DNA of 64,000 nucleotides from contig NC_010321.1 of assembly GCF_000019085.1 (NCBI RefSeq), forward strand, positions 1,995,001 through 2,059,000. Reading direction: 5' to 3'. Shown piece after piece: positions 20,482 to 24,915 of the stretch. Numbering within the stretch: the first letter of the stretch is position 1; each line of letters opens with the position of its first letter. The notes under the pieces are model-generated. The model ran no database searches. It was not told the DNA's origin and saw only the letters and a program-made list of their open reading frames with translations. Source of the DNA: Thermoanaerobacter pseudethanolicus ATCC 33223. Its GTDB lineage: Bacteria > Bacillota > Thermoanaerobacteria > Thermoanaerobacterales > Thermoanaerobacteraceae. Position numbers and translations under genes: made by a program.

Positions 20482-21578
20482 CTACCTCGCTATCCTTTTT
20501 CTGTGTTTTTTTAGTTTTATTACATCTAAAAAAGCTTCTATTCTCGTTAATACATTGGCAATAGCCATTTGTTCATCTACAGAAAGTGACAAAATTGGAT
20601 AGTCATATTCTCTCATTATTTTATCTATCACACTTTGAGAAACAAGTTCTGGTAAACATCCAAAAGGTTTCAAGTGAATGACTCCATCAAATCCTCTTTC
20701 CATAAAATCAATTATTGCACCTACAGACTGTTTTGCATGCCCACCAATTATTATCTCTATGTATTTCTCACCTTTTTTCAATATTTGATGTTCTTTCTCT
20801 TTGTAAGAAGGCAAAGGTATTAAATTAAAATCAATCCATTCGGAAATGTAATGAGACCTTTCCACTTCTGCGCCATAAGCATTTAAAACTTCTTCTATAT
20901 TACCATTTATTGAAGGCTCCATCACAACATATATTTCTCCTACTATTCCAATCTTTATTTTTTCTTCTTCCGGTACTTCACAAATCTTTATACTATTTAA
21001 CCTCTCGATCGCCTTTTTTTCTACCCTTTTTACATCTTCAGAAGATTCTATTTTCCTGTACTCTTCTGTAATCTCATGCCATGCCTTAGTAAACTCTCCC
21101 TTATTACACTCATAAGCTCTCTTGGTCTCTATGATTTTCTCTACTTTATCCATCGATTTTGCCATGTCATATACAGTTTTTACAGTTTTAATAACCCGTC
21201 GCCATGAATTATTTCCTTTTATCTTTTTTACATTGTCCATAAAAGTCTTTAAATCTCTCTTGGGCTCATCAAATATTATAAATTCGACATCATATCCCAT
21301 ATTTTTAAGTATTTTTTTCTGAGCCTCTCCATAATACCCAGCCCTGCAGGGGCCATTCCCACCAGAAGTCACTATAGTATCCGCTCCTAATTCTAAAGCC
21401 TCAAGATAAGTTCCTAAAATAACCTTTAAAGGAAAACAAGCAAATTCAGGACTATATTTTACCCATAATCTACAGTTTTTTGTGAAGGCTTCGGGGGAGT
21501 TATCACTTCATGCCCTAATAATGTAAAAAGTTTTTCATACATATAAGGAGAACCCATATAAGGAAATGTTATCTTCAC
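20482..21578 (-). pseudogene. DUF2229 / dehydratase-subunit-like gene interrupted by a one-base frameshift
   Basis: A GTG at 21578 opens VKITFPYMGSPYMYEKLF and reads to a stop at 21459-21461; the next frame then continues with KYSPEFACFPLKVILG and runs to 20482. Restoring one base in the GGG run at 21462-21464 rejoins them into about 365 residues. The downstream part has SGGNGPCRAGYYGE, HLKPFGCLPE and LSVDEQ motifs of the HgdB-like DUF2229 family. The first ATG in the long frame, at 21372, lies inside the conserved core and is unlikely to be a true start. Either a real mutation, a sequence error, or frameshifting. Confidence 0.8.
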
Positions 21579-23253: not shown

Positions 23254-23605
23254 TTAAAAGCAAAACAAAAATGAGATCAGTCCAACATTCTCACAACATT
23301 CATATTCCATCTGCAAGGTAACATGATGTATATTAAAAGTTCCCTCAAGGATAGTTCTAATCTGCTCCATTATTGTCTCTGCCTGGCTCAATTTGATATC
23401 ATCTCTTGTGTTAACATGACATTCAAAATGTATATCTTTATCATTAGTCTGCCAGACATGCACATGGTGTATAATTTTTTACCCCTGGAAGTTTTTCAAT
23501 TTCCTTTTTTATGGCATCAAGATTTATATCATTAGGAGTTTTTAGCATTAATATTCCTATTGTTTCATTTATTATTTCAAAGCTTTCTTTTAGTTTTAAT
23601 TTGCT
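23254..23605 (-). pseudogene. Decayed C-terminal fragment of a cation diffusion facilitator (CDF) exporter
   Basis: The end of the frame reads HVWQTNDKDIHFECHVNT, the cytoplasmic domain of CDF metal exporters. About 50 codons further upstream (KLKESFEIINETIGILML) are in another frame; a one-base difference near GVKN separates them. All membrane segments are gone and no start codon exists. Upstream of it lies a half copy of the TetR operator. Confidence 0.75.
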
Positions 23606-23765: not shown

Positions 23766-24137
23766 TTATTTTTTAGATTCTTCTCTTTGAGAAACAGCCT
23801 TTTTGATTTCATTTATAACCTGCTCTGTATTCATGTTTCTTATTTCGATTCCAATATGCTTATCTCTTGGAAAACCTACATCGTCAAAAGCATCTCTGTA
23901 CATTTTTCTTTGCATTGTAGGGTCACAAGCAGCAACATAAAGTTCGTCTATTTGTGCTCCCCTTAATAGTTCCCTTAAATACCTGTCCCCATCATCAGCA
24001 CAAAGTTGAGGATGTAATCCTACCCACTCAAAAATGCCCTCTCTTCTTAAAGTATTTAAAACTTCAAATTTGCCCATTTGTTGAAATGATGGACACGTGC
24101 CTTGGCATACGCATAAAAGTAATCCTTTTTTACTCAT
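23766..24137 (-). CDS. HdrA-N-domain-like small redox protein
   Basis: 123 residues. CVCQGTCPSFQQM near the N-terminus and AACDPTMQRKMYRDAFDDVG in the middle resemble the N-terminal cysteine domain of heterodisulfide reductase HdrA (CxC plus AACxPxxxxxxxR), without its FAD domain. Cysteines at LHPQLCADDG add a possible cluster ligand. It is 5 bases downstream of a ferredoxin gene, so the two likely form an electron-transfer pair. The function is not known to me; an iron-sulphur role is inferred. The ArsR-type operator upstream of the pair points to regulation by metal, sulphur or oxidant. Confidence 0.65.
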   Translation of the reverse strand: MSKKGLLLCVCQGTCPSFQQMGKFEVLNTLRREGIFEWVGLHPQLCADDGDRYLRELLRGAQIDELYVAACDPTMQRKMYRDAFDDVGFPRDKHIGIEIRNMNTEQVINEIKKAVSQREESKK

Positions 24138-24142
24138 AAAAA

Positions 24143-24358
24143 TTACCTCCTATCTCCAAAATATGTTATAGCTTCATTATCACAAACTTTTGAGCATCCA
24201 CGGCAAAATTCCACACAATTGTCTGGATTTACAACATCCGGATACCCATCGTCACCGATGGTATAAACGTCGTGTGGACAAAAGTTCACACATTGATAGC
24301 ACTGAATGCATTTATCTTTATCTATTATAGGATACCAATTCTTTGCCACATATTTCAC
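24143..24358 (-). CDS. 2[4Fe-4S] ferredoxin
   Basis: 71 residues. One classical cluster motif CIQCYQCVNFCPHDVY, and a second CVEFCRGCSKVCDNEA with longer spacing after the first cysteine. Small soluble electron carrier. An RBS (GGAGGTGA) precedes the ATG. Co-transcribed with the HdrA-like gene and controlled by the operator at 24493-24518. Confidence 0.9.
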   Translation of the reverse strand: MKYVAKNWYPIIDKDKCIQCYQCVNFCPHDVYTIGDDGYPDVVNPDNCVEFCRGCSKVCDNEAITYFGDRR

Positions 24359-24492
24359 CTCCTCTCCAGCGTTTAAAGCTCTTTCAATATATCAGCTATC
24401 CTTCCATTTACAAATAAAAGCTCATTAATTTAAACCAAGATGATTCTTTGATGCAAAAGCAATTATCATTTATATTAATCTCCTATTATATT

Positions 24493-24518
24493 ACTATATT
24501 CGAATATTCAAATATAGT
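24493..24518. promoter_or_regulatory. ArsR-type operator upstream of the ferredoxin operon
   Basis: ACTATATTCGA-N4-TCAAATATAGT, 26 bases with one symmetric mismatch. The same architecture recurs at 24842-24867 before the arsR gene. Confidence 0.75.
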
Positions 24519-24530
24519 AAGTAAAAAAAT

Positions 24531-24818
24531 TTATTTTGTAACAAGAAAGATATTTTTCACTTCCTCAATAATGTTTATGATATTTTCATCTGTTAAAGAA
24601 TAAAAAATTATAGTACCTTCTCTTCTCGTTTTTACCATTTCATTTGCTCTTAATACCATTAAATGCCTTGATACATGGGATTGGTCTAAATTTAGTGCTG
24701 CCATCATCTGACATACGCACATTTCTTTTTTGCTTAAAAGCTCTATTATTTTTATCCTCGTAGGATGTGATAATGCTTTAAAGTACTCGGCAGCTTTATT
24801 ATATACGTCAGCTTCCAC
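24531..24818 (-). CDS. ArsR/SmtB-family repressor
   Basis: 95 residues. Winged helix with the recognition helix in LNLDQSHVSRHLMVL and the metal-binding motif ELLSKKEMCVCQMM: the CVC in this helix is the arsenic/antimony or heavy-metal site of ArsR proteins. The preceding KALSHPTRIKII is standard. Transcribed towards the ferredoxin pair. Twin operators flank it, so it should repress itself and that pair. Redox or polysulfide sensing through CVC is an alternative. Confidence 0.9.
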   Translation of the reverse strand: MEADVYNKAAEYFKALSHPTRIKIIELLSKKEMCVCQMMAALNLDQSHVSRHLMVLRANEMVKTRREGTIIFYSLTDENIINIIEEVKNIFLVTK

Positions 24819-24841
24819 TTTTTTTTCACCCTTTCATATAA

Positions 24842-24867
24842 ATTATATTCGATTTTTCAAATATAGT
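24842..24867. promoter_or_regulatory. ArsR-type operator upstream of arsR
   Basis: ATTATATTCGA-N4-TCAAATATAGT, 26 bases, the same arms and spacer length as the copy at 24493. It lies 24 bases before the ArsR start codon. Confidence 0.75.
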
Positions 24868-24915
24868 CAAGTTAATTTTTTGTCAAGATAGTATCAAGAT
24901 ACTGTAGGATAATTT

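Follow-up and report, generated by a model that had tools for sequence, protein, structure and literature searches.

The window, the whole stretch of 64,000 nucleotides that was analysed, carries on its minus strand a cluster in which an ArsR/SmtB repressor gene is followed by the remnant of a decayed gene, a ferredoxin gene (fd) and a gene for a 123-residue protein. We gave the names hdn and HDN to the latter gene and its product. The window covers 1,995,001-2,059,000 of the genome, which its homologues assign to Thermoanaerobacter. In the direction of transcription the features are:

24842..24870, minus strand: arsR promoter, TTGACT (-35), 17 nt, TATAAT (-10), by promoter match
24842..24867, minus strand: operator 1, an imperfect palindrome 5' of arsR overlapping the promoter spacer, by genome scan and conserved in relatives
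24531..24818, minus strand: arsR, ArsR/SmtB repressor of 95 amino acids, by open reading frame and family HMMs
24493..24518, minus strand: operator 2, at the promoter of the operon of the NifX remnant, fd and hdn, by pattern scans, conservation and alignment with relatives
24373..24469, minus strand: remnant of a NifX/NafY-like first gene, both ends kept and about 220 bp lost, by alignment with the Thermoanaerobacter wiegelii loci L030 and L031
24143..24358, minus strand: fd, a 2[4Fe-4S] ferredoxin, by open reading frame and family HMMs
23766..24137, minus strand: hdn, a 123-residue HdrA-N-like putative Fe-S domain, by profile, alignment and predicted fold

The likely start codon of the ferredoxin is GTG 24349, which is preceded by AGGAGG. 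A mercury-methylation HgcB identity was discarded for it (41 bits against the HgcB equivalog cut-off of 99). Just downstream of hdn, at 23257-23590 (minus strand), a gene for a CDF metal transporter (ZT_dimer domain, E 7e-8) survives as a frameshifted remnant, and CDF-like genes lie close to hdn in L036, L100 and L108. Farther away, at 20482-21372 (minus strand), a 296-residue frame starts within a homologous 365-residue protein of L042, the upstream part being out of frame or lost, possibly by a recent frameshift; it stands beside a DUF2229 protein and a CoA-enzyme activase, under a TetR gene.

Regulator, twin operators and a decayed first gene

The repressor is a member of its family by NF033788 (97 bits, cut-off 55) and PF01022 (56 bits, cut-off 22), one of three genes above the family cut-off in this genome. 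Its only cysteines, C34 and C36, form the CxC of α3 (MCVCQ), which is conserved in relatives; nearly all ArsRs close to hdn in relatives have a CVC or CxC in α3. A BigR/SqrR-type persulphide sensor was considered and rejected (70 bits against the BigR equivalog cut-off of 155; the CxC pair being the sole cysteines). The first-pass annotation had taken the CVC to suggest sensing of a metal, a metalloid or reactive sulphur; the motif stands and its context favours an arsenic-type metalloid, while reactive sulphur is disfavoured by the BigR score and the cysteine pattern. Sensing of an As(III)/Sb(III)-type metal(loid) is supported by family knowledge, from which the putative ligand is taken.

The 26-bp palindrome ACTATATTCGAATATTCAAATATAGT occupies 24493-24518 and the near-identical ATTATATTCGATTTTTCAAATATAGT occupies 24842-24867, with one mismatch at a specified base of the pattern. 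No twin-palindrome sites of this kind occurred in shuffled sequence, and the 20-bp operator core is found without mismatch only at these two positions in the complete genome of 2.36 Mb (2,362,816 bp). The further genomic copies for which the first-pass annotation had proposed a search did not emerge, degenerate sites with up to two mismatches numbering 16 against 20 for a reversed control pattern, i.e. none beyond chance. Operator 1 takes up the whole 17-bp spacer between the -35 and -10 hexamers of the arsR promoter, which match at 11 of 12 positions; this is a near-perfect sigma-70 promoter, and an operator that fills its spacer is the classic anatomy of an autorepressor. Immediately downstream of operator 2 (minus strand) lies a TATAAT, at 24485-24490, with a weak -35.

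A core scan of the fetched loci showed the twin operators kept in about 20 related loci, belonging to Thermoanaerobacter, Thermoanaerobacterium, another family of the order (one locus) and another family of the same class; the arrangement (one site before arsR, one between arsR and the next gene) is that of the loci which retain arsR. In these loci the operator sequences drift and the palindrome persists. L015, of the same class, retains the operator before fd though arsR is not adjacent; here hdn has as its neighbour, in convergent orientation, a gene that scores as genuine ACR3 (434 bits against a cut-off of 283). T. wiegelii and its relatives have two further copies, before a TDT/SLAC1 transporter gene and before an SBF/ACR3-like transporter gene, the latter scoring 98 bits in T. 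wiegelii and hence below the ACR3 cut-off of 283. That ArsR autoregulates and controls fd-hdn through the twin operators is strongly supported by the sequence pattern and its conservation.

Both operator sites are thus as the first-pass annotation had described them, save for the single mismatch; the second, said to precede the ferredoxin gene, is separated from it by a gap of about 135 bp that consists of the two ends of an internally deleted NifX-like gene, the start MIIAFASKNHLGLN, followed by a stop, and the end GRIADILKEL-stop. In T. wiegelii (L030, L031) the gene is intact, encodes 106 residues with a weak PF02579 match, and is the first of the operon; from this alignment the intact order is read as arsR, the second operator, nifX-like, fd and hdn. 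The gene is reduced further in L042 than in the window. By this comparison, the stretch between operator 2 and the ferredoxin is a gene remnant and not a designed leader.

HDN and the N-terminal domain of HdrA

Pfam and NCBIfam have no entry for the HDN family. None of 57 members matched Pfam, and the nearest NCBIfam models, those of full-length HdrA, remain far below cut-off (17 bits against 1400, HDN having 123 residues only). When the family profile was compared with solved structures, HdrA was the only convincing match (E 8e-6 to 1e-4 for three sequences, two more being weaker). The AlphaFold2 model of HDN (pLDDT 92.7, pTM 0.88) superposes over 120 residues on the HdrA N-terminal domain, with Z 12.4-14.4 and rmsd 2.3-2.4; among unrelated folds the best reaches Z 8.3. 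The structure comparison that the first-pass annotation had called for bears out its view of a lone N-terminal part of HdrA, and the ferredoxin near hdn in 70 of 75 loci (see below) its view of a coupled ferredoxin.

Over 57 sequences from many phyla, 18 positions of HDN are invariant: C9, V10, C11, G13, C15, F18, M21, R31, H42, L45, C46, D49, G50, C71, M75, K78, M79 and R100. C9, C11, C46 and C71 align with the four cysteines of the HdrA N-domain (L025/L029), and C15 is a fifth invariant cysteine, where HdrA has another residue. Profile, predicted fold and cysteine pattern all mark HDN as a homologue of the N-terminal domain of HdrA that stands by itself, with a predicted [4Fe-4S] cluster. 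The corresponding cluster of HdrA is reported to be held by the N-domain cysteines together with Cys197 of the other subunit, and to be placed on the way to free ferredoxin (PMC9012536). With C15, HDN may be able to supply every cluster ligand itself and do without the partner-subunit cysteine of HdrA, and the adjoining ferredoxin would be its electron partner. Long frames in L039 and L086 that could pass for natural fd-hdn fusions look like upstream extensions of the reading frame. In several Thermoanaerobacter genomes (L020, L021, L024, L046) hdn is truncated, a sign that some members of the genus are losing the module.

Neighbourhood and distribution of the fd-hdn pair

Neighbours were counted within 2.5 kb of hdn in 75 less redundant loci, using a simple ORF caller and home-made profiles, with the flanks at 3-5 kb as internal control. 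A ferredoxin gene was present in 70 of the 75 loci, mostly directly adjacent to hdn, ArsR in 40, and at least one ars marker in 59, leaving 16 loci without any. The pair had no arsR nearby in 35 loci, and ArsR is consequently a frequent regulator rather than a defining part; the first-pass annotation had held that wide occurrence of the pair apart from arsR would speak against its reading, and with almost half of the loci of this kind the objection applies in part. Other neighbours were DsbD/CcdA (23 loci), ArsE-type thioredoxin and ArsP-family permease (21 each), ACR3 (15), DGC (12), NifX-like (10) and ArsF (8). Relative to 3-5 kb, the density near hdn was 29-fold for ferredoxin, 20-fold for NifX-like and 16-fold for ArsF (neither of the last two found far away), about 4-fold for ArsE and DGC, and 3-fold for ArsR. 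Counts within 1.5 kb against 3-5 kb were 38 and 12 for ArsR, 16 and 4 for ArsE, and 8 and 0 for ArsF. By these counts hdn recurs beside arsR and further ars genes more often than the background would give, as expected of an ars accessory gene. The densities of ArsP and ACR3 close to hdn and at 3-5 kb were about equal, perhaps a mark of longer ars islands. Among 133 operon partners, profile scans named the ArsE, ArsG/SaoE, ArsF, arsenite methyltransferase-like (ArsM), ACR3 and ArsC families.

With three ArsR genes in the window genome, the chance of finding one within five genes is near 1% there. In this genome the fd-hdn pair stands alone with arsR, the sole ArsE and ArsP genes being elsewhere (G000:C1:800063-801454) and without the operator. 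They belong to a second ars-like locus (L120, G000:C1:800063-801904) made up of an ArsR (ICVCE), an ArsP-family permease and an ArsE-type thioredoxin, without an operator of the 24493 type. A search for ACR3 in the same genome gave two weak SBF matches only, one with stops in the matched frame, and the region inspected had no operator.

A second form of HDN (CVCTGKCPGF) occurs in several Bacillota (L023, L028, L135-L138, L140, L141), in the order dihydrolipoyl dehydrogenase (lpd), hdn, fd, a DGC::GcvH fusion and a second DGC protein. The GcvH-like lipoyl domain of the fusion retains the lysine motif (ESGKAV), and one of these loci also has arsR and an arsenite methyltransferase. From its gene content the branch looks like a lipoyl-based redox system; it links fd-hdn to protein dithiols and is the best lead for the electron acceptor.

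The family, a gene of 115-130 residues, extends over more than ten bacterial phyla and the Thermococcaceae; bacterial hosts include Bacillota, Thermotogota, Caldisericota, Cryosericota, Dictyoglomota, Chloroflexota, Omnitrophota, Atribacterota, Margulisiibacteriota, Spirochaetota and Geobacter relatives. Most loci were collected by a single similarity search that had the HDN of the window as query, whereby distant branches are under-sampled. The family is sparsely distributed: of 299 genomes sampled from the phylum of the window, 16 have it. In the tree, the window HDN groups with Cryosericota, Caldisericota and an Actinomycetota MAG, in a clade with support values of 98/92, and its identity to the Caldiserica/Cryosericum copies is 82-85%. 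The nesting and the identity across phyla fit horizontal transfer; as one of the Cryosericum copies is from a RefSeq (NZ_) genome, binning error by itself explains the pattern poorly. PLSDB yielded no plasmid-borne copies. Judged from tree and loci, fd-hdn is a widespread, horizontally moving module and not an ArsR-specific pair. Two Thermococcaceae loci (L108, L104) have TDT, NifX-like, hdn, fd, CDF and SBF-like genes in common with T. wiegelii L030, a set shared across domains.

Proposed role and comparison with known systems

We propose, at what we consider close to even chances, that the fd-hdn pair is induced by metalloids under ArsR and relays electrons from the ferredoxin, by way of a [4Fe-4S] cluster in HDN, to a protein dithiol. 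By means of the twin operators ArsR would keep both arsR and the fd-hdn operon repressed, and binding of an As(III)/Sb(III)-type soft metal(loid) to its CxC would release it from them. The dedicated ferredoxin would then pass electrons to HDN, the induced pair acting as a low-potential electron-transfer unit, and HDN would pass them on to a protein dithiol/disulphide used in metalloid detoxification, for which ArsE-like thioredoxin, ArsC or ArsF in many relatives, and the lipoyl carrier in the divergent branch, are candidates. The module would so be an accessory that ars-type regulons of anaerobes have gained by horizontal transfer. A more specific version, that HDN and ferredoxin constitute a new, minimal ferredoxin:dithiol reductase, distinct from the plant-type ferredoxin:thioredoxin reductase, whose one [4Fe-4S] domain of HdrA origin reduces ArsE-type thioredoxins or lipoyl carriers, is possible but doubtful.

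The five invariant cysteines of HDN and its control by ArsR would also suit a chaperone or sink for metalloids and soft metals, ArsD-like in role, in which the cysteines hold As(III), Sb(III) or Cd and the ferredoxin only keeps the thiols reduced; the efflux transporter genes of relatives that carry the same operator agree with it. We regard this as unlikely, however: the fold and four of the cysteines match an Fe-S cluster domain, the invariance of G13, R31, H42, D49-G50, K78-M79 and R100 goes beyond the need of a sink, and the pairing of fd with hdn is near universal. The NifX/NafY-like ancestral first gene, found within 1.5 kb in 10 cases and never at 3-5 kb, points in another direction, to an electron-fed cluster carrier or repair factor that protects Fe-S clusters under metal stress. 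Some loci do have SufB-like and Fe-S_biosyn neighbours, but the SufB-like density near hdn is only 1.2 times that farther away and thioredoxin-like and ars partners are more frequent, which makes such a role quite unlikely.

A regulon that answers reactive sulphur (polysulphide, sulphite), with HDN and ferredoxin as a persulphide or disulphide reductase, would account for the TDT/SLAC1 transporter gene under the same operator and the TauE and OsmC neighbours, and HdrA-like proteins do act with lipoyl carriers in bacterial sulphur oxidation (PMC6067878). Nevertheless, ArsR lacks the BigR-type dithiol arrangement, having only C34 and C36 and scoring 70 bits against 155, and TauE occurs in just 2 of the 133 operon partners; we hold this to be distinctly improbable. 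That HDN is a functionless, degenerate leftover of HdrA is scarcely credible: it is one domain of a larger protein and some Thermoanaerobacter copies are truncated, yet 18 positions are invariant over 57 sequences, the ferredoxin pairing is near universal and the operators are conserved.

Anaerobes depend chiefly on ferredoxin as reductant, whereas thioredoxin or glutathione powers most of the arsenic chemistry known so far. The electron relay proposed here would make fd-hdn probably an undescribed part of metalloid detoxification; a minimal ferredoxin:dithiol reductase, if true, would provide anaerobes with a ferredoxin-driven route of arsenic detoxification. HDN, a family with 18 invariant residues across bacteria and archaea that Pfam and NCBIfam do not catalogue, has neighbours that point to such a ferredoxin-powered process, and it shows what the N-terminal domain of HdrA may do alone. 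No description or function of an ArsR/ferredoxin/HdrA-N pair was found in the largely open-access literature searched.

With the N-terminal domain of HdrA in the HdrABC of methanogens (5odc, 7bkb, 8rvu) HDN shares the predicted fold, the CxC...C...C pattern and the profile match; in contrast to HdrA, it stands alone, without the FAD/thioredoxin-reductase or ferredoxin domains, has an extra invariant cysteine (CQGTCP) and is 15-20% identical, and no hdrBC was seen beside hdn. The window ArsR, as read from its sequence, has the winged helix family, the CVC, the palindromic operator over the promoter and the autoregulation of the E. coli/R773 type, but its regulon consists of the ferredoxin/HdrA-N pair, with no transporter or reductase gene. 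Relatives of hdn-fd share operons with ArsE, ArsF and ArsG-family genes, as in ars operons of the ArsEFG/ArsP type, of which hdn and fd are not described as members in the literature found. At the arsC-1 locus of Fusibacter sp. 3D3 a ferredoxin and a redox-active disulphide protein lie beside arsC, and its authors propose a ferredoxin-driven arsenate reduction (PMC9751042); unlike in the hdn loci, an HdrA-like protein is not mentioned there. In the sHdr/LbpA system of sulphur oxidation (PMC6067878) an HdrA-like protein is linked with a lipoyl carrier, as it is in the divergent branch of HDN, but sHdr/LbpA comprises full Hdr-like complexes, whereas HDN is a single HdrA domain accompanied by a ferredoxin.
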